From Ruania rhizosphaerae (lineage in GTDB: Bacteria; Actinomycetota; Actinomycetes; Actinomycetales; Beutenbergiaceae), in the NCBI RefSeq assembly GCF_009805705.1, contig NZ_VSMB01000002.1, forward strand, positions 310,001 to 374,000: a stretch of 64,000 nt of DNA, given 5' to 3'. The notes under the pieces were generated by a model that ran no database searches, was not told where the DNA came from, and was given only the letters and a program-made list of their open reading frames with translations. A program made the position numbers and the translations under genes. This document shows, piece by piece, positions 252 to 31,334 of the stretch (within the stretch, counting starts at the first letter, position 1; every line of letters starts with the position of its first letter).

Positions 252-1124
252 TCAGAACATCTCGGCGAACCCGAGTTCGACGAGCCGCTCGCGGGACATG
301 GTCAGCGAGTCGAACGGGTCCCGGCCGTAGGTGGCGTCCTGCTCGATGAGCAGATGCGCCGCACCGGCATCGATTCCTGCCCGCACGATCGCTGCCCAGT
401 CGAGTGTCCCCTGCCCGACCTCGGCGAACTGCACGGGCTGTGTGAGGTGCTGTTGCACAGCCGAACGGTCACCGTCTGCGAGCGCCTCGAACGCCTCGGC
501 CGGGGGAAGGCTCACCCGGAAGTCCTTCAGGTGCACCAGGTCGACCGACCCCGCGAGCCGCTCGAGCGTGCGAACGGGGTCGTGCCCGCCGCGCTGCACC
601 CAATAGACGTCGACCTCGAGCCACAGGTTCGGTGCCTCGGTGCGGATGGTCTCCAGCACCTCCCGGTGACCGAGCCGAGCGAACTCGATGTGGTGGTTGT
701 GGTAGGACAGCCGGATGCCGTCATCGGCGAGCCGGCGGGCCATCTCGTCGGCGTCGCGGCAGAAGCTGAGGAGTGCCTGCTCATCACGCAACGCAGGAAA
801 CGGCATCATCCCGATCCGGATCCGTTCGCATCCGAGGCGCCGGGCTGAGGCCACGAGGTGGTCGTAGTCGCTCAGCAGGGACGGGTTGGCACCGCCGCCG
901 GCCTCCATGGTGCCCGACAGCGCCGCATAGCTCAGGCCGAGCTCGTCCCGACCGCGGGCGAAACTGTCCAGGTTCTCGCTGGTGAGCGGCACCTGGGAGA
1001 CCTCGATGTTCGGCAGCCCGATCTCGCTGAGCCGTTGCAACACCGCAGGCAAGCCGAGCTCGTCCACCTCCTGCCGCACGGTCATGAGCTGAACGCCGAT
1101 CCTGGCTGGAGTGTGAGCAGTCAT
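252..1124 (-). CDS. sugar phosphate isomerase/epimerase family protein
   Basis: This 290-residue protein has the pattern of the AP-endonuclease-2/xylose isomerase-like TIM barrel: an opening strand IGVQLMTVRQE, a metal-site block SYHNHHIEF in the middle, LWLEVDVYWV, LVHLKDF, EVGQGTLDW and a closing IEQD. In this family such residues (His, Glu, Asp, Glu) bind a divalent metal and isomerise, epimerise or dehydrate sugars, keto-inositols and related compounds. The length is complete for the family and there is no signal peptide, so it is cytosolic. The start is the ATG at 1124. It stands alone; the nearest sugar genes are the DUF4127/ABC locus 2-14 kb away, to which it may contribute. The substrate cannot be told from sequence. 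Confidence 0.85.
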   Translation of the reverse strand: MTAHTPARIGVQLMTVRQEVDELGLPAVLQRLSEIGLPNIEVSQVPLTSENLDSFARGRDELGLSYAALSGTMEAGGGANPSLLSDYDHLVASARRLGCERIRIGMMPFPALRDEQALLSFCRDADEMARRLADDGIRLSYHNHHIEFARLGHREVLETIRTEAPNLWLEVDVYWVQRGGHDPVRTLERLAGSVDLVHLKDFRVSLPPAEAFEALADGDRSAVQQHLTQPVQFAEVGQGTLDWAAIVRAGIDAGAAHLLIEQDATYGRDPFDSLTMSRERLVELGFAEMF

Positions 1125-1232
1125 ACGCCCATCTCTACCGGTGGCGAGGTACTGGGGGAAGTGGTTGCCCTCTGTTGCCGACGGCCGAGCACCACCGCCC
1201 CCGCTTCACCACCGGCCCAGCCACCGCACTGA

Positions 1233-1286
1233 CCGCACTGACCGGATCGACACAGGCGTGTGAGCTCCCGCACCATGCTGCCGCAG
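1233..1286 (-). promoter_or_regulatory. dispersed upstream element, copy 1
   Basis: This block closely resembles 46595-46649 and shares its core with 36219-36267. It contains GACCGGATCGACACAGG, then CCCGCACCATGCTGCCGCAG. It lies about 110 bases upstream of the sugar isomerase start at 1124. The other two copies lie a similar distance upstream of leftward genes and in the same orientation. The function is unknown; a promoter or regulator site is inferred. Confidence 0.45.
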
Positions 1287-1325
1287 ACCGACGTATTCCG
1301 GTCGATCCGGCCAGCGTCCGACCGG

Positions 1326-1331
1326 TAGCGT
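1326..1331 (+). promoter_or_regulatory. -10 hexamer of a leaderless promoter
   Basis: TAGCGT begins exactly 12 bases before the ATG at 1338, which would place the transcription start at or next to the start codon. No Shine-Dalgarno sequence is present before this ATG. The same geometry recurs at several genes in the window. Confidence 0.5.
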
Positions 1332-1337
1332 GCCCGC

Positions 1338-3065
1338 ATGACCGGCACCCCCGCCCCCGAGTCCCACCCAGACACCGCGGCCCACCCAGGCACCGCGGCC
1401 CGCCCGCGCACCGCGACCGACGATGTCGCCGACGCCTACGTCCGCACGCTCGCCGACCTCAGTCCGATGTTCGCCACCGAGGCCGGCCTCCCCGGCCGCG
1501 AGGACGCTCTCGACGACCACTCCCCCGAAGGCCTCGCCGCATTCACCCAGGCTGCACGCGAGACGCTCACTGCCCTGGACGCAGCCACCCCCGCTGACGA
1601 GGTGGACCGGGTGACCCAGCACGCGATGCGGGAGCGGCTGGGACTGGAGATCGAGCTGGCCGAAGCGGGTGAGGACTTCGCGGACCTGAACGTGATCGCC
1701 TCCCCGGTGCAGACGATCCGCGAGGTCTTCGACCTCATGCCCACCGACTCCGCCGAGGCGTGGGCAACGATCGCCGCCCGGATGCAGGCGGTGCCAGGCG
1801 CGATCGACGGCTATGTGGAGTCCCTTCGCCACGGCGCTTCCCAGGGCCGGGTGGCTGCGATCCGCCAGGTGGAAGCGTGTATCACCGAGGCCGACGGGCT
1901 CGCCGGGGCGGAGGGGTTCTGGCAACAGCTGGCCGACGGCGCACGCATCGATGGCCAAGCACCTCCCGATGAGGTCGTGGCCGCCCTGGCGCAAGGAGCC
2001 GCGGCAGCTCGCGCAGGCTACGCCGCCTTGGCGGATGCCCTCCGGGAGCTGGCTCCGCTTGCCCCGGTGAGGGACGCCGTCGGGAGGGAGCGGTACGAGC
2101 GGTTCTCCCGGACGTTCGTGGGCGCCGAGGTGGACCTCGACGAGACCTATGAATGGGGCCTGGCTGAGCTGGAGTCGATCGTCGCCGAGCAGCAGGTGCT
2201 CGCGGAGAAGATCAGCGGGCCGGGAGCGAGTATCGAGCAGGCCATGGCCGAGCTGGACGCTGATCCGGATCGCACCCTGCACGGCACCGAGGCGCTGCGG
2301 GAGTGGATGCAGACCACCGCCGACGAGGCAGTGGCCGCCCTGGCCGGAACCCAGTTCGACATCCCGGACCCGGTGCGCACCATCGAATGCTGCATCGCAC
2401 CCACCGAGAGCGGCGGCATCTACTACACGCCACCGAGCAGCGACTTCTCCCGCCCGGGGCGGATGTGGTGGGCGGTGCCGTCGGGAGTAACGGAGTTCGC
2501 CACCTGGCGGGAGAAGACGACCGTTTATCACGAGGGGGTACCCGGCCATCACCTGCAGGTCGGGCAGACCATCTATCGCGCGGAGACCCTCAACGACTGG
2601 CGGCGGATGGCCTGCTGGGTGAGCGGCCACGGCGAGGGATGGGCGCTCTACGCGGAACGGCTCATGCAGGACCTCGGCTTCCTGGACGACCCGGCCGATG
2701 CGATCGGGATGCTGGACGGGCAGCGGCTGCGCGCCGCCCGCGTGGTCATCGATATCGGCGTGCACCTGGGAAAGCCGTGCCCGCCGCAGTGGGGCGGCGG
2801 GACCTGGGATGCCGAGAAGGCCTGGCCGTTCCTGGACGCCAACGTGAACATGCCCGAGGGGTTCAAGCGGTTCGAGCTGAACCGCTACCTCGGTTGGCCC
2901 GGGCAGGCGCCGTCGTACAAGGTGGGCCAGCGGCTGTGGGAGCAGCTGCGCGAGGAGACCCGCACCCAGGAGGGAGCCGAATTCGACCTGGCACGCTTCC
3001 ACCGGCGCGCCCTGGATGTGGGGTCGGTGGGACTGGACACCTTGCGGATGGCGCTGCTCGGCTGA
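1338..3065 (+). CDS. DUF885 family protein (putative metallopeptidase)
   Basis: The 575-residue protein carries the DUF885 signature: TVYHEGVPGHHLQVGQ near residue 396, a HExxxGH-like zinc motif, followed by SGHGEGWALYAERL, which supplies further conserved Glu residues, and ELNRYLGWPGQAPSYKVGQ near the C-terminus. Members are full-length at about 550-600 residues and are thought to be peptidases with a gluzincin-like helical fold, but few have been characterised. There is no obvious signal peptide. The start is the ATG at 1338, with a -10 TAGCGT 12 bases upstream and no ribosome binding site. It is monocistronic and convergent with the next gene; only 86 bases separate the stops, and I saw no strong terminator there. 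Confidence 0.85.
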   Translation: MTGTPAPESHPDTAAHPGTAARPRTATDDVADAYVRTLADLSPMFATEAGLPGREDALDDHSPEGLAAFTQAARETLTALDAATPADEVDRVTQHAMRERLGLEIELAEAGEDFADLNVIASPVQTIREVFDLMPTDSAEAWATIAARMQAVPGAIDGYVESLRHGASQGRVAAIRQVEACITEADGLAGAEGFWQQLADGARIDGQAPPDEVVAALAQGAAAARAGYAALADALRELAPLAPVRDAVGRERYERFSRTFVGAEVDLDETYEWGLAELESIVAEQQVLAEKISGPGASIEQAMAELDADPDRTLHGTEALREWMQTTADEAVAALAGTQFDIPDPVRTIECCIAPTESGGIYYTPPSSDFSRPGRMWWAVPSGVTEFATWREKTTVYHEGVPGHHLQVGQTIYRAETLNDWRRMACWVSGHGEGWALYAERLMQDLGFLDDPADAIGMLDGQRLRAARVVIDIGVHLGKPCPPQWGGGTWDAEKAWPFLDANVNMPEGFKRFELNRYLGWPGQAPSYKVGQRLWEQLREETRTQEGAEFDLARFHRRALDVGSVGLDTLRMALLG

Positions 3066-3151
3066 GTTGCGGCCGGGGCACCGCGCCTGGTGCCCCGGCC
3101 CTCGTAGCGCGACCACGGTCGTCGCCGCTCACGACCTCCCGAGCACTCCCA

Positions 3152-4909
3152 TCACGGGCGTGCCCCGGGTCTCCGACCTGCCGCCTCTCGCCAGTCCGGG
3201 GGTACCTGCGGGTGCGCCCCGGCGGTCACCGGGCCCGGCCCGTCGTGGGCGTATCCCACGGTGGCGAGCAGTCCCAGACCGTTGTGGGCGATGGGGAGGG
3301 TGCCTTCGGTGAGGATGCACATGTGCTCGGTCGTGTCACCGTCACCGTCGACGTCGTCCCCGTCGCGTCCAGGCAGGGCCATCGGCATCAACGATCGGTC
3401 CTGGATCGCGACGAGCGCATAGTCCTCGGCCGCGACCAGTCGTTCGTAGCCGTGGGCGAACTTGTCCGGGACGAGGTCGGCGCGCACGTCGGCGAGGATG
3501 CCGAATCCGACGATGTCGTAGTACTTGGCCTCCGCCGTCGTGAGATCGGTACCGGAGGAGCGCACGTAGCCGCCGAACGAGAGATGCGGGTCGTAGTCCC
3601 ACGGGTCGCCGGTGCCGGTGGTGCCCTGGTTGTCGGGCGGGTAGTACGGGTCCACAGCGCCGGCGTGGGTGTCGTCCACGCAGTTCAGCGGGTCGGTGCT
3701 GGACGCCGTGTGCGTTCCGGGGATGCTCGTGTAGCGCTCGTAGTGATCCCCGACGGCGGCCGTCGCCGATGCCTGCCCGTTGACTTCCCGCTCGTACCGG
3801 TACAGGGAGGCCATGGCGTACTCAATCATGTCCGTACCGAGAGATCCTCCGGATGGGAGGCCATCGACGTAGTCGCACGCGCCCTTCCGGTGCCAGCGGT
3901 TGTCCTTACAGTTGGCGCTGTTCGCGGACATCGCCACGATCCGGTTCTGCGCGGTGGCGGGTGAGTCGAAGTCTGCCGTGTACCAGTCGGTGCCGAGGTC
4001 CAGACCTTCCTCCAGGAACGCCCGACCGTCCGCAGCGGCAGCTGCGTAACGGCCATCGGTGCTGCCGAGGGCGTGCTCGAGCTCGGAGAGGAACTCCACG
4101 GCGGTCATGTTCCACAGCGACATGGTGGCGAACAGGTTGTTCCAGCTGGAGACCTGGTCGAAGAAGCCGCCCGGAGGTGCGGTGGGCTGCCCGGTGTTGT
4201 CCAGGAACGGCTCCGCACCGTAGGACTCGTAGTAGTCCCGGGGATCCTGCATCCGCAGCAGGAACTCACCGATGTCGACGGCGGCACTGGCGTAGGCGGG
4301 TTCCGCGGTCAGTTCGTAGGCCGCGAGCAGGGCACGGCCGCAGGACGCGTTGCCGAAGGTGGTGTAGTACAGCTGGCTGCCGCCGAGCGAGCTGGCCACG
4401 GCACCGTCGAACAGGTCGTCTCGGTCCGGGTTCGGATCGGCTTGGTAGGCCAGCACGGCGTCGGCGAACTCGGCGATCGCGTTGCGCTCGTCCAGGTACA
4501 GCGAGCTCCTGCCCTGCCACGCGGCGCGTGCCGGGAAGTACCGGGAGAGGAACTCCAGCGACGAGCAAGCCGCCGTGCTCTGCTGCACGTCCACCTCCAG
4601 GCACGGGTCGGTCTCGGTGCAGGAGCCGATGGATGAGCCGTACACGTACCTCAGCTTGCGCATCAGACCGTTGCGGTGTTCACCGTCGTCCCTGCGCAGG
4701 ATCCAGCTGGCGTAGGTATCCAGCGCCGGTCCGCTCGCAGAAGTGGTCGTGAGCCAGGCGGTTGCGGACATCGTGGTGGCGAACCCGGGCTCGGGCACCG
4801 ATGCCGCGGTGGCAGTCCCAGGCCCGCCCGCGGGCAGGCCGCCCGCGACACCCAGCAGTGCCGCGAGCAACCCGGTAGCTACCAGTCCGTGCCAGCGCCG
4901 GCGGCTCAT
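3152..4909 (-). CDS. secreted protein of unknown function, co-operonic with DUF4127
   Basis: I do not recognise a named family. The first ~35 residues form a Sec signal peptide (RRR, then a long Leu/Ala/Gly-rich core, ending TATAASVPE). The mature part is rich in Trp, Tyr, Asp and Asn, and helical stretches such as EFADAVLAYQAD, RALLAAYELT and DIGEFLLRMQDP give it the look of an alpha/alpha-toroid carbohydrate-active protein; that is inference. Near residue 545 is a calcium-loop-like stretch DGDDVDGDGDTTEH. About seven Cys suggest extracellular disulfides. Its ATG overlaps the stop of the upstream DUF4127 gene (ATGA), so the two are translationally coupled. It may act on, or bind, the same extracellular substrate. 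Confidence 0.6.
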   Translation of the reverse strand: MSRRRWHGLVATGLLAALLGVAGGLPAGGPGTATAASVPEPGFATTMSATAWLTTTSASGPALDTYASWILRRDDGEHRNGLMRKLRYVYGSSIGSCTETDPCLEVDVQQSTAACSSLEFLSRYFPARAAWQGRSSLYLDERNAIAEFADAVLAYQADPNPDRDDLFDGAVASSLGGSQLYYTTFGNASCGRALLAAYELTAEPAYASAAVDIGEFLLRMQDPRDYYESYGAEPFLDNTGQPTAPPGGFFDQVSSWNNLFATMSLWNMTAVEFLSELEHALGSTDGRYAAAAADGRAFLEEGLDLGTDWYTADFDSPATAQNRIVAMSANSANCKDNRWHRKGACDYVDGLPSGGSLGTDMIEYAMASLYRYEREVNGQASATAAVGDHYERYTSIPGTHTASSTDPLNCVDDTHAGAVDPYYPPDNQGTTGTGDPWDYDPHLSFGGYVRSSGTDLTTAEAKYYDIVGFGILADVRADLVPDKFAHGYERLVAAEDYALVAIQDRSLMPMALPGRDGDDVDGDGDTTEHMCILTEGTLPIAHNGLGLLATVGYAHDGPGPVTAGAHPQVPPDWREAAGRRPGARP

Positions 4910-6657
4910 CGCCGGGCCTCCGTGACCAGCTCCGTTGTCAGCTCCGGCTCTGCCGCGAGCTCACCGGTACGCAGCCAGGGCAGGAAGATGTTCCACTCGG
5001 CCACCTCACGGGCGCTGAGAGTGAGGGACTGACCGTCGACTGTGCCCACCGGGCGTGGCACGTCGGCAAAGTGCTCGTCGAAGATCCCTTGCGCCTGCGG
5101 CGTGGTGTGCTCGCGTGCGTAGGCGTCGATCTCGTCGTAATAGGTCGCGATGATCTGCGGGTTGGGCTCCCCGAGCGCCGAGGCGTAGGCGGTGGTGTCG
5201 GCCCGCACGTAGTTCCGGTAGGCGTTCGTCTGCACCCATTCGGAGAGAGTGAGCTCGACCGTGTGCTCTGCCGCCTCACGCAGCAGCTCGGTACGCCAGG
5301 CGAGGATGGGGCTCGCCGACGACTGCGCACCACCCGGACCGACATCGCCCGCCTCGGCACGCTGCAGCAGCGCGTGGCGGCTCAGTGACTGGGAGATCGG
5401 GATGCCGATGTTCCATCCGGAGTAGGAGTCGAGACTTCCGCGCTGGATCTCCTCGTCCAGGAGGTTCATCAGGCGCCGGTCGGTGTGGCCCGCGATGGCG
5501 TCATCGCCGAGTGCGACCGTGTGCCCGTCGTCGAGGTAGTGGACGATCCGATCGGCGAACGGTTCGACGGAGTCCTGATTGCCTCCTGTGTTGGCCATCA
5601 GCACCACATCGGCGTCGTCGACATCCTCGGTGATCCGGCCACCGATGGTGTGCACGTATCCGTGAATGAGGTCCTGGTAGCGAATGTTCTGGTACGGAGC
5701 GGTCCACTCGGCGCCATGGACGCGGGAGTACTCCACATAGACGGCGGGCTCTGTCCCGGCCTCCTCGACGGCGATCTTCGCCAGCAGCAGAGAGGCGACG
5801 ACGTCGGCCCCGGGGTAGAGCACCACCCGGTCCTGAACACCTAGCTCGGCGATGCGCGCCGCGAGGGCCTCGGCCTCGGGGCGGTGTAGTCCGGTGCCGG
5901 AGGCGTCGTCCTGGCCGATGATCAGATAGTCGAAGATGCCCTCGGCCGCCCACTCGATCATCCGCAGGTTGATCCGGTGGTTGCGCGCCCGGGTCTCCAG
6001 GTAGGCGGTGCGGACCTCCTCAGGGATCTGTGCCTCCAGCTCCTCCAGCCGGGGTCGCTTCTCCTCCTGGCCGAGGTTCTCCACCTCGTCGAGCACTGTC
6101 GCCCAGAGCCGTATCTCGGTGCGCCACGGCCCCTCCGGGGTGAGCCGCATGATCGTGTCGAAGGCGTAGAGTCGCTCGCCCGGGTTCTCCTCGCGGACCT
6201 GGCGTACCGCCTCCAGGTTCGCCATCGCCTGGTCTTCGCTGACGGCGCTGTCACGGGAGTGCAGCAGGCCCCCGTAGGCGAGCATCGGCAGTGCGATGAT
6301 CGCGTCGTCGGCCTGGTCGGCCGCGCGAGTCAGCCACTCGCCGGCTTGTGCTCCGTCACCCGGAGTGAAGTGGCGTCCAAGCACATCCGACTCGGGCGTG
6401 AGGACCTCGTAACCAGCGCCACCACCCAGTTTCAACGGGGCATACCAGGTGTAGGGCCGGTCGTCGAGAGGAAGCAGCGCAACCTCACCGAGACTGTTGT
6501 TGCCAGGCGGGAGCCCGTCTCCCTCCCAGACCGTTCGCGAGTCCGGAACGGGTGTTGCCGCCGCGGGCACGGCGACAGCCGCAAGAGCGGCGGCGAGCGC
6601 CATGGCGATAGCGCGGCCGGCGAGCATCGGGACGGGGCGTTTCGATCGAACGAACAT
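4906..6657 (-). CDS. secreted DUF4127 family protein
   Basis: This is the first of two DUF4127 proteins here (583 residues). The chosen ATG at 6657 is preceded by GAGGAG five to six bases away and opens a signal peptide (positive N-terminus, then MLAGRAIAMALAAALAAVAV, cut near AAATP). Family motifs in order: LLPLDDRPYTW, LPMLAYGGLL, EVENLG, NHRINLRMIEW, IIGQDDASGTG, YPGADVVASLLL, VYVEYSR, APYQNIRYQDL, LMANTGG, ALGDDAIAG and GWNIGIPISQS. No biochemical role is established for the family as far as I know; the conserved Asp-rich motifs and sugar-import context suggest a carbohydrate-related hydrolase or lyase. It is the first gene of a leftward operon divergent from a LacI gene, with a shared inverted operator sequence between them. 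Confidence 0.8.
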   Translation of the reverse strand: MFVRSKRPVPMLAGRAIAMALAAALAAVAVPAAATPVPDSRTVWEGDGLPPGNNSLGEVALLPLDDRPYTWYAPLKLGGGAGYEVLTPESDVLGRHFTPGDGAQAGEWLTRAADQADDAIIALPMLAYGGLLHSRDSAVSEDQAMANLEAVRQVREENPGERLYAFDTIMRLTPEGPWRTEIRLWATVLDEVENLGQEEKRPRLEELEAQIPEEVRTAYLETRARNHRINLRMIEWAAEGIFDYLIIGQDDASGTGLHRPEAEALAARIAELGVQDRVVLYPGADVVASLLLAKIAVEEAGTEPAVYVEYSRVHGAEWTAPYQNIRYQDLIHGYVHTIGGRITEDVDDADVVLMANTGGNQDSVEPFADRIVHYLDDGHTVALGDDAIAGHTDRRLMNLLDEEIQRGSLDSYSGWNIGIPISQSLSRHALLQRAEAGDVGPGGAQSSASPILAWRTELLREAAEHTVELTLSEWVQTNAYRNYVRADTTAYASALGEPNPQIIATYYDEIDAYAREHTTPQAQGIFDEHFADVPRPVGTVDGQSLTLSAREVAEWNIFLPWLRTGELAAEPELTTELVTEARR

Positions 6658-6765
6658 GTGCGCTCCTCGCATAGGACGGCAGTGTCTGTACGGGCAACGC
6701 CGCAGGGAGCAATCCTGGTGGTGAAACACCGCCTGCGACGACCATTCGCATGGAACAGCGTCATC

Positions 6766-6780
6766 CGTAAAACTGCAAGA
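6766..6780 (-). promoter_or_regulatory. candidate LacI-family operator, left site
   Basis: The reverse complement reads TCTTGCAGTTTTACG, identical over 15 bases to 6909-6923 on the other strand. TTGCAG within it could also be the -35 of the leftward DUF4127 promoter, with TTCCAT 17 bases on as a weak -10. It lies 109-123 bases upstream of the DUF4127 start. Confidence 0.55.
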
Positions 6781-6908
6781 GGTTGCTCTCGCCCCCTCGA
6801 GCGGACCGGCCCGGCGATACCTCACCGTCAGCGACGGTTATCGGCACACTTTGCGCCAGAAGTGACCGGTGACACATCGCAGACTCACTAAAGATCTCCG
6901 CAGATACG

Positions 6909-6923
6909 TCTTGCAGTTTTACG
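6909..6923 (+). promoter_or_regulatory. candidate LacI-family operator, right site
   Basis: TCTTGCAGTTTTACG here is the inverted partner of 6766-6780, 143 bases apart. It continues into GTTTTACGCAAAAC (6916-6929), which has a CG centre and matching GTTTT/AAAAC arms, as is usual for LacI-family operators. TTGCAG, 17 bases, TTCAGT then forms a promoter ending just before the LacI ATG, so the site would support autorepression. Confidence 0.55.
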
Positions 6924-6947
6924 CAAAACGGTATTCAGTGGGCGACC

Positions 6948-8015
6948 ATGACGACCACAAGCCACGAGAACGGCCGCCGCTCAGGCACGTCTCGTCGGCC
7001 CACGCAGGCCGACGTGGCGCGCCTAGCCGGCGTCAGCCAGACGACGGTCTCCCTGGTGCTCAGCGGATCCGGTGCAGCCCAGCACCGCGTCGGCGAGACG
7101 GTCCGCGAGCGAGTACTCCGAGCGATCGAACTCACCGGATACGTCGCGAACCCAGTGGCACAGTCACTCGCGGGCGGACGTACCTCGATCATCGGCGTCT
7201 ACACCTACGAGCCGGTGTTCCCGCACGATGCGGGCAACTTCTACTACCCCTTCCTGGAGGGAATGGAGGACGAGGCACAGCGGCTCGGCGTGGACCTGCT
7301 GCTGTTCACCTCGATGGCTCCGTCGAACCGGGCTCTGATCGGCGGGGCCGGGATCCGCCGACTGCGAGTAGCCGACGGCTGCGTCCTGCTCGGTCGCCAC
7401 AGCTCACCAGACGACCTCGCCGAACTCGTCCGCCTGGACTTCCCGTTCGCCTTCGTCGGGCGCCGTGAGACGCCCGCCGGAGAGGTACCGTTCGCGGGAG
7501 CGGCCTACGAGGATGCCACGGCGAGCATCGTCGACCATCTGCTGGAGCTGGGACACCGTCGCATCGCGCTCGTGAACGGCTACACCGGTCACGAGTCAGT
7601 GGAGGACCGTGCCCGCGGGTACCGGCGCGCGATGTCAGCGGCCGGGCTCCAGCCGGTGACATTCGACCAAGGCGATCGCGACGCGGGCGACCTGCTCAAC
7701 GCCCTCACCTCGAGCGGCATGACCGCGGCTGCGGTCGCCTCCGACATCTCGGGTGCACTGCGGCGCACCGCGCTCGACCGCGGGCTCAGCGTCCCCGGCG
7801 ACCTCTCCCTCGTCCGGCTCGGTGATCCCGAGGTCGGCGAAGAAGCGGACGTTGACTGGACCGGGTTCCTCATCCCACGTATGCAGATGGGCGCCGAAGC
7901 GCTGCGCATCGTCGCCCAGCGGCTGGCCGGCGACGAGGACGCCGACGCACAGAGATTCATCTCGTGCACCGTCGTCGACGGCACCACCGCGGGGCCCCTC
8001 GCTCCCCTGGCTTGA
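6948..8015 (+). CDS. LacI family transcriptional regulator
   Basis: The N-terminus has a classic LacI helix-turn-helix, QADVARLAGVSQTTVSLVL, followed by a hinge ending in ANPVAQSLAGGRTSIIGVY and a periplasmic-binding-protein-like sensor domain (residues ~75-350), where GHRRIALVNGY marks the second subdomain. The 355-residue length is typical. The ligand is probably the sugar or breakdown product handled by the adjacent importer. It is the first gene of the rightward series, 34 bases before the FAD oxidoreductase, and divergent from the DUF4127 operon. The ATG at 6948 has no clear Shine-Dalgarno sequence. Paired 15-base sites in the divergent region are its likely operators. Confidence 0.9.
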   Translation: MTTTSHENGRRSGTSRRPTQADVARLAGVSQTTVSLVLSGSGAAQHRVGETVRERVLRAIELTGYVANPVAQSLAGGRTSIIGVYTYEPVFPHDAGNFYYPFLEGMEDEAQRLGVDLLLFTSMAPSNRALIGGAGIRRLRVADGCVLLGRHSSPDDLAELVRLDFPFAFVGRRETPAGEVPFAGAAYEDATASIVDHLLELGHRRIALVNGYTGHESVEDRARGYRRAMSAAGLQPVTFDQGDRDAGDLLNALTSSGMTAAAVASDISGALRRTALDRGLSVPGDLSLVRLGDPEVGEEADVDWTGFLIPRMQMGAEALRIVAQRLAGDEDADAQRFISCTVVDGTTAGPLAPLA

Positions 8016-8049
8016 CGGCCACACACCAGCACTACGAAAGGGCACACAC

Positions 8050-9663
8050 GTGCGCGAAGCGCAGACACAGGTTCTCGTCGTCGGAGGTGGACTCGGCGGT
8101 GTCGCAGCAGCACTGGCCGCCGCAGACCACGGCGCCGACGTGATCCTCACCGAGGAGTACGACTGGCTCGGCGGCCAGTCCACCTCACAAGCCGTCCCCC
8201 CCGACGAGCACTCATGGATCGAGAGCTTCGGCTGCACGGCGCGCTACCGCCGCTTCCGGGACGGGATCCGGGACCACTACCGCGAGCACTACCCACTCAC
8301 TGCCGCCGCCCGAGCACGCCCCGACCTCAATCCCGGTGCAGGCTGGGTCTCCAAGCTCTGCCACGAACCGCGCGTCGCCGTCGCTGTGATCGATGAGATG
8401 CTCGCCGCGCATCGCGCCACAGGCAAGATCCAGGTGATCCAGCCGGTACGGCCGATTGCCGCCACCATGGACGGCGCGCAGGTGCGCACCGTCGAGTTGG
8501 AGGACGTCCGAACCGGAGCCCGCACCACAGTGGCCGCGGACTATGTCGTCGACGCCACCGAGACCGGAGAGCTGCTGCCCCTGACCGGTACCGACTACGT
8601 CCTCGGTTTCGAATCCCGCGGCGAGACCGGCGAACCAAGTGCTCCGGACGAGTCCCAGCCGGAGAACGTGCAGGCGATGAGCGTCTGCTTCGCGGTCGAC
8701 CACGTCGATGGCGATCACACCATCGAGCGCCCGGAGCAGTACGACTACTGGCGCGCCTACACCACCGACTACTGGGGTGCGAACCTGCTCAGCTGGAGCG
8801 CCCCTCATCCGCGCACCCTGGAGATCGTGCACCGTCACTTCTCCCCGAACCCGGGTGATGACCCGCTCACGGTCGCCGCTGACCAGGCCGTCAATGCCGG
8901 AGACGGGAACCTGTGGACGTTCCGCCGGATCCTCGCCCGGGACATGTTCGCACCCGGCGCCTACGACAGCGACATCACGCTCGTGAACTGGCCGAGTATC
9001 GACTACTTCGACGGACCGCTCATCGACGTCCCCGCCGATGTCGCGGCCCAGCGCCTGCACGACGCCAAGCAGCTGAGCCTGTCGATGCTGTACTGGATGC
9101 AGACCGAGGCGCCACGCCCCGACGGCGGCGCCGGCTGGCCGGGTCTGCGGCTGCGCGGTGACGTCGTCGGCACCGACGACGGCCTCGCGATGGCGCCCTA
9201 CCACCGGGAGAGCCGGCGCATCCGGGCGCTCGAGACCATCCGCGAACAGGACGTCTCCCTCGCTGTCCGGGGTGATCGGGGCGCCCGCCGCTACCCCGAC
9301 AGCGTAGGGATCGGCATGTATCGCATCGACCTGCACCCCTCCACCGGCGGAGACAACTACATCGACGTCGGTGCAGAGCCCTTCGAGATCCCGCTCGGCG
9401 CACTGATCCCGCAGCAGACCACGAACCTGCTTGCTGGATGCAAGAACATCGGCACCACACACATCACCAACGGTTGCTATCGCCTGCACCCCGTGGAGTG
9501 GAACATCGGCGAGGCGGCCGGCCTGCTTGCCGCGGAGTGCCTGAAGCAGGGCACCACCCCCCACCAGGTGCACGGCAGTGCACCGCTCACCGCAGACCTG
9601 CAATCCGCACTGATCGCCGACGGTGTTGAGCTGCACTGGCCCGACGGCGTCCAGGGCTACTGA
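8050..9663 (+). CDS. FAD-dependent oxidoreductase (FAD_oxidored type)
   Basis: The protein (537 residues) opens directly with a dinucleotide-binding Rossmann motif, VLVVGGGLGGVAAALAAADH, ending in an acidic residue (LTEE) that would bind the FAD ribose, then DWLGGQSTSQAVPPDE. A second FAD contact, LLAGCKNIGTTHITNGCYRL, lies near the C-terminus and precedes EWNIGEAAGLLAAECL. This fits the PF12831-type flavoproteins often found in sugar-utilisation clusters; the substrate is unknown and it probably oxidises or reduces an imported carbohydrate in the cytosol. The start is the GTG at 8050, with GAAAGGG seven bases upstream; longer in-frame starts would overlap the LacI gene. Confidence 0.85.
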   Translation: MREAQTQVLVVGGGLGGVAAALAAADHGADVILTEEYDWLGGQSTSQAVPPDEHSWIESFGCTARYRRFRDGIRDHYREHYPLTAAARARPDLNPGAGWVSKLCHEPRVAVAVIDEMLAAHRATGKIQVIQPVRPIAATMDGAQVRTVELEDVRTGARTTVAADYVVDATETGELLPLTGTDYVLGFESRGETGEPSAPDESQPENVQAMSVCFAVDHVDGDHTIERPEQYDYWRAYTTDYWGANLLSWSAPHPRTLEIVHRHFSPNPGDDPLTVAADQAVNAGDGNLWTFRRILARDMFAPGAYDSDITLVNWPSIDYFDGPLIDVPADVAAQRLHDAKQLSLSMLYWMQTEAPRPDGGAGWPGLRLRGDVVGTDDGLAMAPYHRESRRIRALETIREQDVSLAVRGDRGARRYPDSVGIGMYRIDLHPSTGGDNYIDVGAEPFEIPLGALIPQQTTNLLAGCKNIGTTHITNGCYRLHPVEWNIGEAAGLLAAECLKQGTTPHQVHGSAPLTADLQSALIADGVELHWPDGVQGY

Positions 9664-9725
9664 GCCCCGCCATACCCGACCCGGCCGTCTGCATCCGCAG
9701 CGGTCATCCCCAAAGAGGAGTCACC

Positions 9726-11018
9726 ATGGTTCACCGCAGATCCGTCTCAGCCCTCGCCTCGCTCGTGCTCGCCGGCACCCTGGCCGCGTGCGGCAGTGGT
9801 ACCAGCGACACGTCCGAGGACGCCACACCCGACGGTCCTGTCGATCTCCGCATGACCGTCTGGACAGCCGACGAGGGGCATCTGGGCCTGTTCCAGGAGA
9901 TCGCCGATGCTTATGTCGCCGACCACCCTGACGAGGTCTCGTCGGTGACCTTCGAAACGATCCCGTTCGAGGACTACACGACCACCCTCACTACGCAGCT
10001 GGCCGGCGGCAACACGCCCGACCTGGCGTGGGTCTTCGAGAGCAACGCCCCCGAGTTCGTCTCCAGCGGCGCCCTCGCGGAGATCGGCGGCACACTGGAG
10101 GCTACTGACGGCTACGAGTACGAGGACCTTCTCGGTTCGGCACTCGACCTGTGGAGCAACGATGACGGCCTCTACGCCTACCCCTTCTCCAACTCGCCGT
10201 TCGTGATGTTCGTGAACACCGACCGGATCGCCGAGGCTGGGCAAACGCAGCCGTCGGAACTGCATGCCGGCGGTGAGTGGACCTACGACAGCGCACGGGA
10301 CATCTCCGCGGCAACCGTCGAGGACCTGGGCGGCGCCGGCCTGGTCGTCCGCGACTTCGACTACACCGCGTGGTCCAACCTGGCCTCGGTCTGGGGCGCC
10401 TGGGGCGCGCAGCCATGGAGCGCCGACGGCACCACCTGCGAGTTCGACTCCCCGGAGATGGTCGACGCCCTTTCCTGGTTCCACGACGCCGTGTACACCC
10501 AGGGCGCGATCCCCGGGCCCGGTACCGCTGCTGACTTCTTCTCCGGCGACACGACGATGACGATCACACAGATCTCTCGTGCGTCCGCCCTGGACGGGTC
10601 TTTCGAGTGGGACATCGTGCCGCTGCCCACGGGACCGGCCGGACAGCCCGGCGTGATCGGCCAAGCCGGGATCGGCGTGCTCGCCAATGGCGAGAACCCC
10701 GGGGCGGCCGCGAACTTCCTCGCTCACTTCACGAACCCGGAGAACGCCAGTCAGCTCTCCCAGTACTTCCCGCCGCCGCGGACCTCGCTGCTGACCACCG
10801 AGAGCCTCGCCGAGGGGAACCCCGCGTTCGACGAGCGGCAGCTGGAGATCGTCGTCGAGGCGATCGACGGCGCGGCCACCAAGCCCTCGCACGTGAACTA
10901 CGCACAGGTCGACACGGCCACTCGCAGCGCGCTGGACGCGCTGTGGACCGAGACCGGTGATGCCGCAGCGGTGGCGACCGAGGTGTGCGCCGCGATCGAC
11001 CCGCTGCTGCAGGACTGA
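9726..11018 (+). CDS. ABC transporter sugar-binding lipoprotein
   Basis: This is a 430-residue solute-binding protein of the family 1 (carbohydrate) type. A lipoprotein signal ends in LAAC with Cys22 as the lipidation site, followed by a Gly/Ser/Thr/Asp linker. The mature protein begins VDLRMTVWTADE and includes GGNTPDLAWVFESNAPEF, typical of cluster-B sugar receptors. GAGGAG lies six to seven bases before the ATG. It precedes two permease genes in the order binding protein-permease-permease, with only a 6-base gap to the next gene. No ATPase gene is present, so a shared MsiK-type ATPase encoded elsewhere is the likely energiser. Confidence 0.9.
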   Translation: MVHRRSVSALASLVLAGTLAACGSGTSDTSEDATPDGPVDLRMTVWTADEGHLGLFQEIADAYVADHPDEVSSVTFETIPFEDYTTTLTTQLAGGNTPDLAWVFESNAPEFVSSGALAEIGGTLEATDGYEYEDLLGSALDLWSNDDGLYAYPFSNSPFVMFVNTDRIAEAGQTQPSELHAGGEWTYDSARDISAATVEDLGGAGLVVRDFDYTAWSNLASVWGAWGAQPWSADGTTCEFDSPEMVDALSWFHDAVYTQGAIPGPGTAADFFSGDTTMTITQISRASALDGSFEWDIVPLPTGPAGQPGVIGQAGIGVLANGENPGAAANFLAHFTNPENASQLSQYFPPPRTSLLTTESLAEGNPAFDERQLEIVVEAIDGAATKPSHVNYAQVDTATRSALDALWTETGDAAAVATEVCAAIDPLLQD

Positions 11019-11024
11019 CCTGAC

Positions 11025-11942
11025 ATGACATCTGTCCCCACCCTCCCGGCCCGCCGGCGCACCATGCGCTGGCGGGACCGGGACGCCCTCTACGGCTACC
11101 TGTTCAGCGCACCAGCGGTGCTCGGCAGCCTCGCCTTCGTGATCGCGCCGCTGATCGCCGTCGTGTGGTACTCGCTGCACGAGTGGAACGTGCTCGCGAA
11201 CACGTTCACCTTCATCGGCGGTGAGAACTACACGCGGATGCTCACCGACGCGGCCCTGCACGACTCGCTCTGGGCGAGTCTGTGGTTCTCCCTCGGGGTG
11301 CTCGTGCTGAACATGACGCTTGCGCTCGCGCTGGCCGTGCTGCTGAACCAGCACCTGCCGGGGACCACCCTGTTCCGGGTGCTGTTCTTCTCCCCGGTGG
11401 TGGTCTCGCTGGTGGCATGGACGATCGTGTGGGGGTTCCTGCTGCAGGCCGACAACGGGGTGAACGCCTTCCTCGCCGCACTCGGGGTGACCGGCCCGAA
11501 CTGGCTGCGCGGGAGCGTCACGGCGATGATCGCCGTGGTCGTGGTGCAGGTGTTCAAGAACGTCGGATTGAACATGGTGCTGTTCCTGGCCGCCCTGCAA
11601 GGGGTTCCGGAGGACATCGGTGAGGCGGCACGGCTCGACGGCGCTGGCGCGTGGCGGCGGTTCACCTCGATCACGCTGCCGATGATCAGCCCCACGATGC
11701 TGCTGGTGGGGATCCTGACCCTCGTCGGTTCGCTCGAGACGTTCGCTCTGATCGACGTGCTCACCGACGGCGGTCCGGGCACCTCCACCACCGTGCTGGT
11801 CTTCTACCTGTACCGGCAGGCCTTCGAGTTCAACCAGTTCGGCTACGCCAGCGCGATCGCCGTGCTGCTGTTCGTCATCGTCCTGGCCCTGACCCTGCTG
11901 CAGTGGCAGACGCGCAAGAAGTGGGTGTTCCATGAGTCCTGA
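11025..11942 (+). CDS. ABC transporter permease, sugar type (MalF/UgpA-like)
   Basis: The 305-residue protein has about six membrane helices, starting with LFSAPAVLGSLAFVIAPLIA, and the cytoplasmic EAA loop EAARLDGAGAWRRFTSITLP (residues ~200-220) that docks the ATPase. It ends in a short basic tail, WQTRKKWVFHES. This is the larger-loop permease of a carbohydrate importer and would pair with the next gene product. It starts six bases after the binding-protein stop and overlaps the next gene by 11 bases, so the three are one operon. Confidence 0.92.
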   Translation: MTSVPTLPARRRTMRWRDRDALYGYLFSAPAVLGSLAFVIAPLIAVVWYSLHEWNVLANTFTFIGGENYTRMLTDAALHDSLWASLWFSLGVLVLNMTLALALAVLLNQHLPGTTLFRVLFFSPVVVSLVAWTIVWGFLLQADNGVNAFLAALGVTGPNWLRGSVTAMIAVVVVQVFKNVGLNMVLFLAALQGVPEDIGEAARLDGAGAWRRFTSITLPMISPTMLLVGILTLVGSLETFALIDVLTDGGPGTSTTVLVFYLYRQAFEFNQFGYASAIAVLLFVIVLALTLLQWQTRKKWVFHES

Positions 11943-12873
11943 CCAGCTCACGAAGCCGCCGACGGCGCAGCCCTCCCCAGGTGCACGCCGTCCCGTCGGG
12001 CGCCACTCCCCCAGGCCACGCCGCGGGAAGCGCCCGCCACGCGCCGAGCACCTCGGCCGTGCGGCGCTGGTGTTCCTGATGGTCCTGCTGGCCGTGCCGT
12101 TCGTGTTCCCGACCTGGTGGATGGCATCGTCCAGTCTGAAGACCACCAGCGAGATCCTGCGGATCCCGCCGACGGTCTGGGCCGAGTCACCGACCCTGGC
12201 GCCTTACCGCGACGTGTTCACACTGCAGCCGTTCGCCCAGCAGTACATGAACAGCCTGTACATCGCCGTGGCCGTCACGATCGGCACGATCGCGGTGGCC
12301 GCGCTCGCCGGCTACGCCTTCGCCCGGATCCGCTTCCCCGGGGCGAACGCCCTCTTCGTGATCGTGCTGATCGGGATGCTGGTGCCCTCGGAGGTGACGA
12401 TCGTCCCGCTGTTCCGGATGGTGAACACCCTCGGTCTGATCGACACGCACTGGCCGCTCATCGTGATCCCGGTGCTGGGTGCACCAAGCGTACTCGCGAC
12501 GTTCATCATGCGGCAGTTCTTCATCACCTTCCCGGGCGAGCTCGAGGAGGCGGGCCGGATGGACGGCCTGACCCGATTCGGCATCTTCGCCCGGATCGCG
12601 TTCCCACTCGCCCGCTCGGCCGTGGCTGCGGTCGCGATCTTCACCTTCCTGAAGTCCTGGAACCTCTACCTCGAACCGATCGTCTACCTGTCCTCGAAGG
12701 AGAACTTCACCCTTCCACAAGCGCTCACCCAGTACGTGGACGCCTACGGCGGACCGATCTGGAACGTCCAGCTCGCCGCCACCACCCTCACTGTGATCCC
12801 GGTGCTGATCGTGTTCGTGATCGCGCAGCGCCAGTTCATTCAGGGCCTGGCCAACACCGGGCTCAAGGGCTGA
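11932..12873 (+). CDS. ABC transporter permease, sugar type (MalG/UgpE-like)
   Basis: This is the second permease of the importer (313 residues). After a Pro/Arg-rich cytoplasmic N-terminus of ~35 residues come six helices (ALVFLMVLLAVPFVFPTWWM is the first) and the EAA loop EAGRMDGLTRFGIFARIAFP. The C-terminal region FVIAQRQFIQGLANTGLKG is the conserved end of this subfamily. Its start codon lies inside the preceding permease gene. The long disordered N-terminal extension is a little unusual but is common in high-GC actinobacteria. Confidence 0.92.
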   Translation: MSPDQLTKPPTAQPSPGARRPVGRHSPRPRRGKRPPRAEHLGRAALVFLMVLLAVPFVFPTWWMASSSLKTTSEILRIPPTVWAESPTLAPYRDVFTLQPFAQQYMNSLYIAVAVTIGTIAVAALAGYAFARIRFPGANALFVIVLIGMLVPSEVTIVPLFRMVNTLGLIDTHWPLIVIPVLGAPSVLATFIMRQFFITFPGELEEAGRMDGLTRFGIFARIAFPLARSAVAAVAIFTFLKSWNLYLEPIVYLSSKENFTLPQALTQYVDAYGGPIWNVQLAATTLTVIPVLIVFVIAQRQFIQGLANTGLKG

Positions 12874-12933
12874 GGCACCGCCTCCTGCCTGCCGAGAGCC
12901 GGACGGCACCGTTGCCGCCCGGGAAAGGACACC

Positions 12934-15354
12934 ATGCGCAACCTCACCGCCCTCCTGACCACCGCCGGCCTGCTCGCCACCTCGCTGGTCGCCGTGAGCC
13001 CGGCCCACGCCGGTCCACCCGAACATGCCGGACCGCCACCGTCCCTCGGTGATATCGCCGTCGTCCCGCTCGACGACCGCCCCTTCCCCGCTGTGACCCC
13101 CGTGGAGATGGCCGCCATCGGCGGCCACACCGCCCTCACCCCGGAGACCGACCTCCTGGGTGAGTTCTTCGACCACGGGGATGCAGACGCCGTCGGCAAC
13201 TGGTGGGAGAGCGCGGCACCGGACGCGGATGCCTCCGTACTCGCCCTGCCGATGCTGGCCTACGGCGGCCTGGTTGCCTCCCGGACCTGTGCCACGGATC
13301 TGGAGACCGCGCGGGAGCGTCTGCAGGTCGTCGAGGAGGTCGCAGCCGCGAACCCGGAGCAGCCCATCTACGCCTTCGACGTGATCCAGCGCCTGACCAT
13401 CGCCCCCACCTCCGGGTACCCAGGGATGTACTCGGGGCCGGTGCGCCAGTGGGCGGAACTGATGGACCAGGTGGAGAACCTCGGTCGCGAGGACCTGCGG
13501 GCCGAGTACGAGGAACTCGCAGCTGAGATCCCGGAGGAGATCAAGAGCGACTACCTGTGCGCCCGCTCCCGCAACCACCAGATCAACCGGGACATGATCC
13601 ACCTCGCCGCCGAGGGCACCATCGACGTCCTCGTGCTGGGGCAGGACGACGCGAGCGAGTTCGGGCCGCATCGCGCTGAGAAGGCCGCGCTGGCGGCCCT
13701 GATCGCCGAGCTCGGTATCGAGGACCGGGTGAAGATCTACCCGGGCGCCGACGTGCTCGGCGCCCTGCTCACCGCCAAGCTGGTGGTGGAGCGCCTGGGC
13801 GTTCAGCCCAGCGTCGCGGTGGAGTGGTCGCGGACCCCCGGTGAGGACTGGGTGGCGCCGTACCAGGATGTGCCCTATGCCGATCTGGTGGACGAGTACA
13901 TCGCCACTCTCGGCGCTGAGCGCGCCGAGGCTGCCGAGTCCGACGTGCTGCTGATGGCCAACACCGCCGGTGCCGGTTCTCTCGACCCGTTCGTCGACCG
14001 GATCCATGAGGAGGTGGCCCGCGGACGGCTCGTGGCCGTGGGAGACGACGCGGTGGCCGGTGTGGTCGATCCGGAGCTGCGGAACCTGCTTGCCCCTCGC
14101 ATCGATCTGGCCCAACTCGGCGGCTGGTCCGGCTGGAACGTTGGCATCTCCCTCTCCCAGGCGGTCGTGCGGGCGGCGTTCCTGGAGGCGAGCCGCCAGT
14201 CTCCGCTGCTCGCCGGGAGCGCCCACACCCAGGGGGCTCCGGTGCTGCGAGCACGGCAGGCACTGCTGCTGGAGTCGGCCACCGCGCACCAACGGCTGCT
14301 CGTCGAAGAACTCGTGCACACCGACCTGTACCGCAACCACGTGCGGACCGCCGTCCGCAACTACGCCGTGGCCGAGGGGGATGACCCACAGCACATCACC
14401 ACCGCGTTTGAGGGTGCGAACGCCCTCGCCACCGACCGCACGGCGGAACTGGCCACACCATGGTTCGCCGAGGAATTCACCGGTACCCCCGTGCGACTGG
14501 GCAGCGACGGCACCACCGAACGGACCGCCGTCGTGGGTTCGTTGGACTCCCTCGACCTGCACCTGGGCTGGCCGCGGTACCAGGAGCTCGACGTCTTCCC
14601 TCAGATCACCCTCACTGAGGGTGAGGCAGCCGCGCCGGTCGCGGTCGCGATGCTCCCCGCCTCCAGCGAGATCCGCCCGGAGACCGAGGTCGCGCTCGAC
14701 CTGACCGCCGTCCTGCGCAACGACACCGCGTCTGTACGCGAGGTCGAGGTCGCCGTCAATGCACCGCAAGGCTGGACGACGGCGGAGGCCACCACGGTCT
14801 CGCTCGAACCGTTCGAGGTCCGCGAGCTGGCCGTCGAGGTCACGACGGCGCCACTCGCCCCGGAGCAGCCAGCCACCGTGGAGATCGTGGTCACCCCGGC
14901 TGACCACGGCGAGAGCGCCAGCGCCACAAGCACGATCACCGCCGTCTGGCGCAACGTGGCCCTGGCATCCAGCGGCGCCACCGTGGACGCCTCGGGCTGG
15001 TGGAGCCAGTACGCGCCGGAACGGGCGATCGACGGCAACACCACCAGCACCGGAAGTAGGTGGCTCACCGAGGCCACGCCGCCGCACTGGCTCGAGGTGA
15101 CCTTCGCAGCACCGGAGACGATCGACTCGGTGCAGTTGCACCAGTACGGCGGCTACCTGCTGGAGGACTACGCGATCTCCGCCGAAGTGGATGGTCAGTG
15201 GCAGGTGGTCAGGGAGGTGACGGCGAACTCCGAGGTCACCCCGTTGCACCAGTTCGATCCGGTCGAAGCCACGGCCGTGCGGCTGGATATCACGGCAACC
15301 CGGGACGGTCGCGTGCGGCTGTATGAGCTCGAGGTCACCTGCCGGAGCTGTTGA
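12934..15354 (+). CDS. secreted DUF4127 protein with C-terminal discoidin-like domain
   Basis: This second DUF4127 protein (806 residues) starts with a signal peptide (LLTTAGLLATSLVAVSPAHA) after AAAGGA. Residues ~30-540 carry the same motifs as the first copy: VVPLDDRPFP, LPMLAYGGLV, QVENLG, NHQINRDMI, VLGQDDASEFG, YPGADVLGALL, VEWSR, APYQDVPYADL, LMANTAG, AVGDDAVAG and GWNVGISLSQA. The rest differs: an Ig-like or NEW3-like beta module (EVEVAVNAPQGWTTAE) and a terminal F5/8 type C-like module (VALASSGATVDASGWWSQY to VRLYELEV), which usually binds glycans. It would act outside the cell at a polysaccharide or glycoconjugate. It closes the rightward operon, 60 bases after the permease. Confidence 0.82.
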   Translation: MRNLTALLTTAGLLATSLVAVSPAHAGPPEHAGPPPSLGDIAVVPLDDRPFPAVTPVEMAAIGGHTALTPETDLLGEFFDHGDADAVGNWWESAAPDADASVLALPMLAYGGLVASRTCATDLETARERLQVVEEVAAANPEQPIYAFDVIQRLTIAPTSGYPGMYSGPVRQWAELMDQVENLGREDLRAEYEELAAEIPEEIKSDYLCARSRNHQINRDMIHLAAEGTIDVLVLGQDDASEFGPHRAEKAALAALIAELGIEDRVKIYPGADVLGALLTAKLVVERLGVQPSVAVEWSRTPGEDWVAPYQDVPYADLVDEYIATLGAERAEAAESDVLLMANTAGAGSLDPFVDRIHEEVARGRLVAVGDDAVAGVVDPELRNLLAPRIDLAQLGGWSGWNVGISLSQAVVRAAFLEASRQSPLLAGSAHTQGAPVLRARQALLLESATAHQRLLVEELVHTDLYRNHVRTAVRNYAVAEGDDPQHITTAFEGANALATDRTAELATPWFAEEFTGTPVRLGSDGTTERTAVVGSLDSLDLHLGWPRYQELDVFPQITLTEGEAAAPVAVAMLPASSEIRPETEVALDLTAVLRNDTASVREVEVAVNAPQGWTTAEATTVSLEPFEVRELAVEVTTAPLAPEQPATVEIVVTPADHGESASATSTITAVWRNVALASSGATVDASGWWSQYAPERAIDGNTTSTGSRWLTEATPPHWLEVTFAAPETIDSVQLHQYGGYLLEDYAISAEVDGQWQVVREVTANSEVTPLHQFDPVEATAVRLDITATRDGRVRLYELEVTCRSC

Positions 15355-15359
15355 TCGCA

Positions 15360-15415
15360 CGAGTTGCCAGTCGTGGTCCGTGTGGAGGTCTGCACGGACC
15401 ACGACTGGCAACTCG
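15360..15415 (+). terminator. perfect 23-bp hairpin after the DUF4127 operon
   Basis: Bases 15360-15382 are exactly complementary to 15393-15415, with a 10-base loop, six bases after the stop codon. There is no T-tract after it. It probably ends the rightward sugar operon, or blocks RNA decay, before maf. Confidence 0.6.
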
Positions 15416-15446
15416 CGCACACCGCCGACGGCGTAAGGTCACCCAT

Positions 15447-16139
15447 GTGAGCGCTCCCACCCTCATCCTCGCCTCTGCCTCCCCAGCCCGGGCAGCCCTG
15501 CTGCGGACGGCCGGCATCGAGCCCGACATCCAGCCGGCTGACGTCGACGAGGAGGCGCTTCTCGCTGCCGCAGCCCGCGAGTCGGGAGGACATGCCGTCC
15601 CCGTCCGTGAAGCCGTGGCCCTGCTCGCCCGCGCGAAGGCCGAGGCGGTGGCCAGTCTGCTCGCAACTACCGACGCTGCGGCCCCTGCTGACCTGACCCA
15701 CCGCACGGACCCAGCCGGCGAACTCGAGGAGGGGGACGCCGTCGTGATCGGTTGTGACTCGCTACTCGAGCTGGACGGTGAGGCCCTGGGCAAACCGTAC
15801 GAACCCGAGCGCGCACGCGCGCGCTGGCGCCAGATGCGTGGACGTTCAGGAACCCTGCACACCGGGCACCACCTGATCCGCGGAGTTGACCACGTTCACG
15901 CGGTCTCCAGCACCGTGGTGCACTTCGCCGAGCTCACCGACGCCGAGATCGACGCCTACGTGGCCACCGGAGAACCCCTGTCGGTCGCCGGGGCGTTCAC
16001 ACTCGACGGCTTCGGCGGCGCGTTCGTGACGGGCGTCGAGGGCGACCCGCACGGCGTGGTCGGGCTGAGCCTGCCGCTGGTGCGGGTGCTGCTGGCGGAT
16101 CTGGGATTGGCATGGACAGACTTCTGGAGAGTCACCTGA
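15447..16139 (+). CDS. maf: Maf-like nucleoside triphosphate pyrophosphatase
   Basis: The protein (230 residues) begins with the Maf signature LILASASPARAALLRTAGI and contains CDSLLELDGE (the substrate-handling Asp region), GKPYEPERARARW and a C-terminal VTGVEGDPHGVVGLSLPLV. Maf enzymes hydrolyse non-canonical or methylated nucleotides to monophosphates in the cytosol. The start is the GTG at 15447: AAGG lies eight bases upstream, and TAAGGT 13 bases upstream could alternatively be a leaderless -10. Upstream in-frame codons lie in the terminator hairpin and are not credible. Maf next to accA is a common actinobacterial neighbourhood. Confidence 0.9.
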   Translation: MSAPTLILASASPARAALLRTAGIEPDIQPADVDEEALLAAAARESGGHAVPVREAVALLARAKAEAVASLLATTDAAAPADLTHRTDPAGELEEGDAVVIGCDSLLELDGEALGKPYEPERARARWRQMRGRSGTLHTGHHLIRGVDHVHAVSSTVVHFAELTDAEIDAYVATGEPLSVAGAFTLDGFGGAFVTGVEGDPHGVVGLSLPLVRVLLADLGLAWTDFWRVT

Positions 16140-30354: not shown

Positions 30355-30421
30355 CCTGACGCCGGTGCTGCCGCGGGACATGCCCGCGGCAGCACCGGCT
30401 GCGACAACGGACGGACAAGTC

Positions 30422-31333: not shown

Positions 31334-31334
31334 C

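Follow-up and report, generated by a model that had tools for sequence, protein, structure and literature searches.

A probable LacI-associated glycan-utilisation locus in Ruania rhizosphaerae and a possible link between DUF4127 and N-acetylmannosamine

What might a bacterium do with a locus in which two predicted secreted proteins of the anonymous DUF4127 family lie on either side of a LacI regulator, a flavoprotein, and a sugar importer? We address this question for positions 3152 to 15354 of a 64,000-nucleotide stretch of the Ruania rhizosphaerae genome (the window), which lies on contig C22 of a 4.4-Mb genome with three DUF4127 genes. The initial annotation had described these parts as one divergent locus, and the open reading frame list and Pfam searches recovered every one of them there. 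On the minus strand are U585 (3152-4909), a 585-amino-acid protein outside known families, and the single-domain protein DUF4127_A (4906-6657, in a reading frame that extends to 6825; PF13552, E 1.2e-103). The two genes share a 4-base ATGA overlap (4906-4909), in keeping with the coupling proposed for them. On the plus strand are the LacI-family regulator (6948-8015; PF00356 and PF13377), an FAD-dependent oxidoreductase that has no signal peptide (8050-9663; PF12831 FAD_oxidored, E 5.5e-104), a sugar-type ABC binding lipoprotein (9726-11018; SBP_bac_1/8, with a lipobox-like LAAC recognised by eye), two permeases (11025-11942 and 11932-12873; both PF00528 BPD_transp_1), and DUF4127_B (12934-15354; PF13552, E 4.9e-100). 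Both DUF4127 proteins score far above the curated cut-off of 27 bits (347.7 and 335.9 bits, over profile positions 1-485 and 1-487). DUF4127_B also matches PF00754 and PF22633; Pfam places a C-terminal F5/8 type C/NedA-like (CBM32-type) domain at residues 689-790, and a NEW3-like match at residues 585-644 is under the Pfam cut-off. Signal peptides are predicted by eye in U585 and in both DUF4127 proteins, with DUF4127_A read from 6657. From these we infer an extracellular location for all three, as the annotation had done.

The binding protein and the two permeases adjoin LacI, as in LacI-controlled CUT1-type importers. The best NCBIfam profiles are UgpA/GlcT/MalF for permease 1 and UgpE/GlcU/MalG for permease 2, all under cut-off. 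No ABC ATPase is present among the ten proteins encoded at 252-16139, whose Pfam families are all others, and the sole match to an ABC ATPase profile across the window is at 49094-50878. Downstream, the stretch 29053-33490 encodes another sugar-type ABC set, comprising a binding protein and two permeases, with an oxidoreductase-like gene behind it. On its other side the locus is flanked by a DUF885 gene (1338-3065) and an IolE-like TIM-barrel gene (252-1124), and the same two genes flank it in a relative of the same genus, G015.

DUF4127 occurs in 9 of 24 genomes of the window's family and, counting the window genome, in 7 of 396 genomes of a sample spread over the phylum Actinomycetota. After duplicates were merged, there were 11 distinct loci of the window's subfamily: the window, G015, four Occultella-type loci (G008, G009, G010, and G011), L037 (Micromonospora), L038 (Dactylosporangium), L039/L040 (Georgenia), L041 (a Microbacterium MAG), and L042 (an actinomycete MAG). 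LacI, the flavoprotein, the binding protein, both permeases, and DUF4127 occur together in 10 of the 11, a recurrence that the annotation had anticipated in related genomes. The exception is L037, which has LacI, both DUF4127 proteins, and U585 and has neither flavoprotein nor importer within its 22 kb. Wherever the flavoprotein was seen in these loci, LacI precedes it and the binding protein follows it. The description of two flanking DUF4127 proteins is accurate for the window and is not constant elsewhere: DUF4127_A is present in seven loci (window, G015, L037, L038, L040, L041, and L042), and the match in the remaining four is to DUF4127_B, at 44 to 45 percent. Full-length U585 is found in five (window, G015, L037, L038, and L041). 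The DUF4127_A/U585 arm is optional. In L041 these two proteins are fused in a single 1104-amino-acid reading frame. G009 carries a remnant (L017:4898-5986) in which an apparent internal deletion has brought the beginning of DUF4127_A into frame with the end of U585. In a tree, DUF4127_A and DUF4127_B form two sister groups. Micromonosporaceae are found in each, and the pair is therefore older than the families.

Both sides of the divergent promoter region carry a 14-mer, repeated exactly and in inverted orientation at 6766-6779 (minus strand, DUF4127_A side) and 6910-6923 (plus strand). These are its sole exact copies in the whole genome. In shuffles of the window, two matches at no more than 3 mismatches arose in 18 of 100; both real copies are exact. 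The copy at 6766-6779 is conserved in a same-genus relative (L016), and the other overlaps an operator-like palindrome, GTTTTACGCAAAAC (6916-6929), so that the two together span 6910-6929, just before LacI. In 8 of the 11 loci (window, G015, G008 to G011, Georgenia, and L041), the available stretch contains the motif GTTTTRCGYAAAAC once, immediately ahead of LacI. The motif is absent from the available stretches of L037, L038, and L042, where AT-rich palindromes centred on CG, recognised by eye, take its place. Under a strict definition of a palindrome, with 7 of 8 pairs matched within 16 bases, operator-like sites were recognised in 6 of the 12 regions, and the window, L016, L039, and L041 had none. 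The palindrome before LacI fits a putative LacI operator, to which LacI presumably binds, and the repeats on both sides make plausible the earlier proposal of a single regulator for the two arms. A whole-genome search at no more than 2 mismatches returned 5 sites, versus 9 for a reversed control, and hence points to no wider regulon. The GTG at 6825 is probably the wrong start for DUF4127_A, since the conserved operator-like copy at 6766-6779 would then fall within the gene; the ATG at 6657 is likelier, as it lines up with the gene start in L012/L016, from the same-genus relative. The flavoprotein starts near 8050 rather than at 7753.

Two further genes are found in sister loci. In G015, the left arm runs from U585 into a ROK kinase gene, whose ATG overlaps the U585 stop, and then into nanE, 4 bases past the ROK stop. 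After nanE come the DUF885 and IolE-like genes, in the order in which they stand beside U585 in the window. Given these shared flanking genes, the window differs from G015 by exactly the ROK-NanE segment. A six-frame scan found ROK and NanE in 4 of the 11 loci, within the same transcription unit: in G015, beside permease 2 in L038 and L042, and after the fused gene in L041, where the contig ends within NanE. The NanE of L038 is identified by NCBIfam above cut-off; the ROK proteins match its ManNAc kinase models below cut-off only. The window genome has 17 ROK matches, and among the 10 of these that were compared, the NanE-adjacent one is the closest to each of the four locus ROK proteins. Neither ROK nor NanE is present in the available stretches of the window locus, the four Occultella-type loci, L037, or Georgenia, and the window locus thereby lacks the pair expected of a nan operon. 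The window genome does have another NanE and ROK pair, head to head on contig C11, and the NanE of G015 is 60 percent identical to the C11 protein. No copy of the LacI site lies at this distant pair, which presumably replaces the two missing genes.

The association with NanE extends across phyla. A scan of a genome collection with two peptide patterns, which makes for an uneven sample, gave 106 confirmed loci, and all counts out of 80 below refer to the best 80 of these. NanE was missed by gene calling in L042 and L041, and a six-frame recount raised it from 19 to 21 of 80 DUF4127 loci. N-Acylglucosamine 2-epimerase is present in 6 (with a further weak match in L091, a NanE locus), so that one or the other epimerase is found in 27 of 80 (25 by called genes) and neither in 53. 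About 0.2 NanE would be expected in the 1.43 Mb of these loci, judging from 17 strong matches in the 24 family genomes (about 104 Mb), a rough yardstick given that the taxa differ. By called genes, NanE lies within three genes of DUF4127 in 11 of 19 loci and in an unbroken same-strand run with it in 15 of 19. ROK is present in 20 loci (18 by called genes), RpiR in 16, GH20 in 8, PTS IIC in 6, NagA in 6, and NagB in 4, all by six frames, and GH38 in 6 (7 by called genes). The flavoprotein profile is found in 25, of which 13 also have either epimerase; this set is mixed, with at least two subtypes under one profile. On the DUF4127 tree, labelled from the older, lower NanE set of gene calls, the epimerase label is spread: well-supported branches require at least 10 changes, and none of 500 shuffles was as strongly clustered. 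A large group of Armatimonadota shows another neighbourhood, with a phosphoglycerate-mutase-like metalloenzyme and two orphans, c5 and c9. The c5 protein (234 amino acids), which has no Pfam or NCBIfam match, is the immediate neighbour of DUF4127 in 22 of the 80 loci, or 23 when six frames are scanned, most of them from Armatimonadota (L046-L076, L079, L082, and L096).

The neighbourhoods with NanE, 2-epimerase, and ROK suggest that DUF4127 may be an enzyme that helps release N-acetylmannosamine (ManNAc) or a ManNAc-containing sugar. The 53 loci with neither epimerase, the distinct Armatimonadota neighbourhood, the loci of the window's subfamily in which neither ROK nor NanE was seen, and the absence of the LacI site at the C11 pair speak against it. 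In a second explanation, the target of DUF4127 is a GlcNAc-type, GalNAc-type, or N-glycan-like structure, with NanE and ROK serving another part of that glycan and ManNAc only incidental. The GH20, GH38, NagA, and NagB counts favour it, as does the third DUF4127 of the window's genus (L021:9537-11015 and L022-L024), which is near NagB in all four of its loci and near NagA in two of them and has NanE in none. However, NanE or 2-epimerase is commoner across the 80 loci than GH20, NagA, or NagB, and the amino-sugar genes seen within the window's own subfamily are NanE and ROK. We regard an incidental role for ManNAc as doubtful, if a serious contender. The third DUF4127 of the genus is a single-domain protein without a signal peptide, and it is accompanied by a separate LacI and by an esterase-like protein encoded nearby.

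Is DUF4127 an enzyme at all? In 93 sequences, D47, R49, S116, R117, R211, N214, D/E238, D239, D273, D371, W401, N402, and W546 (DUF4127_B numbering) are at least 95 percent conserved. The near-invariant D47, R49, D/E238, D239, D273, D371, W401, and N402 suggest an enzyme, and the conserved Asp pair D238/D239 recalls GH84. Single-sequence and profile searches of DUF4127 against solved-structure sequences gave no match (best E, 2.5). GH84, GH20, and NamZ (GH171) share an amino-sugar context with DUF4127. Profile comparison with these three gave hhalign probabilities of 0.0 to 0.7 percent, in a test of low power, since the GH20-GH84 control reached only 1.7 to 5.4 percent; comparison with MlrC, GHL10, GH38, NanE, and others, likewise of low power, found no relation. 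Pfam matches at E of 10 or less included DUF3263 (11 of 84; best E, 0.003) and GDSL (3 of 84; best E, 0.007), and no repeated family was worth following.

U585 has no Pfam match at E 0.01 and no NCBIfam match, and by itself it matches no solved-structure sequence. Its profile weakly matches AprG (E 0.011 over 45 residues), and one of four members weakly matches glucuronyl C5-epimerase (E 0.052). Both are alpha/alpha-toroid enzymes, and neither match is significant; with the helical repeats of U585, they hint at an alpha/alpha-toroid. No literature on AprG was found in open-licence PubMed Central. One locus, G493 (L117:2-6585), has LacI and U585 without DUF4127, beside a pectate-lyase-like protein with a CBM32-type domain; it also has the same operator-like palindrome, with the motif GTTTTRCGYAAAAC, just before LacI. 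Comparison of the flavoprotein with solved structures gave Rossmann-only matches. In five Bacteroidota loci (L067, L069, L070, L073, and L081), the flavoprotein has an N-terminal signal sequence, Tat-like or of another type, which the window protein does not have. Hence the cytosolic redox step proposed in the annotation agrees with the window protein and is not general.

If DUF4127 and U585 were accessory binding or structural proteins rather than enzymes, the importer and flavoprotein could serve a plain or uronate-containing polysaccharide. The G493 locus is in keeping with such a role, as are a Georgenia neighbour that weakly matches pectin lyase and the presence of DUF4127 and U585 in L037 without an importer. 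The near-invariant acidic residues of DUF4127 argue against it. So does the situation in many Bacillota, where DUF4127 is a cytosolic single-domain protein beside PTS/ABC genes, sugar kinases, and epimerases. We consider the accessory role unlikely.

A sialic acid lyase of the NanA type could also supply ManNAc. Pfam identifies none among the ten window-locus genes. We collected 138 unclassified neighbours from NanE/2-epimerase loci and, leaving out 13, mostly long, searched 125. The DHDPS/NanA family is not among the top 25 families of this set, and hence is present in at most 2 of the 125. In 12 NanE/2-epimerase genomes, a DHDPS-family member lies within the locus only in L070, and it is distant (24 bits, with the contig assigned by its coordinates). 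A single member is present in the L101 genome and another in the L103 genome, either of which could be the enzyme of the lysine pathway, and the L083 genome, a MAG, gives no match to the family. These results suggest that ManNAc in the searched loci arises other than by an adjacent NanA, with NanA elsewhere possible in most genomes. That DUF4127 itself replaces or supplements NanA, or handles a modified nonulosonic acid, would suit both the L083 genome and the Bacteroidota loci, which are nan-operon-like (2-epimerase, MFS, ROK, and SusC/SusD) with no NanA-type lyase near, but an exported DUF4127 with a CBM32-type domain suits a polymer and not an aldolase substrate, and the Bacteroidota MFS scores as GluP-like, so that we think such a sialic acid system very improbable.

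The reading we prefer, and which we hold with about even confidence, is a LacI-controlled glycan-utilisation system. In it, a glycan containing N-acetylhexosamine would be attacked extracellularly by the exported DUF4127_A, DUF4127_B, and U585, with DUF4127_B held on the glycan by its CBM32-type domain. The binding protein and the permease pair would import the product, with energy from an ATPase whose gene lies elsewhere. The cytosolic flavoprotein would then carry out some redox step, and the ROK kinase and NanE would convert N-acetylmannosamine to ManNAc-6-P and on to GlcNAc-6-P. The glycan or glycoconjugate utilisation suggested in the annotation is thereby narrowed, most probably, to an N-acetylhexosamine glycan whose breakdown gives N-acetylmannosamine. 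A broader proposal is distinctly more tentative: DUF4127 may be an unrecognised carbohydrate-active family that cleaves ManNAc-containing linkages and releases ManNAc or ManNAc-ended sugars, acting as a secreted protein in Actinomycetota and Bacteroidota and in the cytosol in many Bacillota, and U585 may be a second new enzyme, a partner acting on the same polymer.

As a system, the locus is of a known kind, that of LacI/ABC glycan utilisation. Actinobacterial LacI-controlled CUT1 operons likewise have a binding lipoprotein, two permeases, LacI, secreted carbohydrate proteins, and no ATPase in the operon. The window locus differs from them in that its catalytic candidates are DUF4127 and U585 rather than known glycoside hydrolases and that the flavoprotein has its fixed place in the gene order. 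The nan operons for sialic acid and N-acetylmannosamine have the ROK kinase and NanE in common with the sister loci, whereas the window locus has no NanA, ROK, or NanE and has DUF4127.

Neither DUF4127 nor PF13552 was found in open-licence PubMed Central, in agreement with the annotation's view that the family has no assigned function, and the word mannosaminidase was not found there in any form. As far as that literature shows, a link between DUF4127 and N-acetylmannosamine has not been described. DUF4127 spans many phyla, and its link to NanE, 2-epimerase, and ROK gives an anonymous family a concrete assay. It bears on how bacteria may recycle ManNAc-containing glycans of the cell wall, capsule, or host when no sialic acid lyase is encoded close by.
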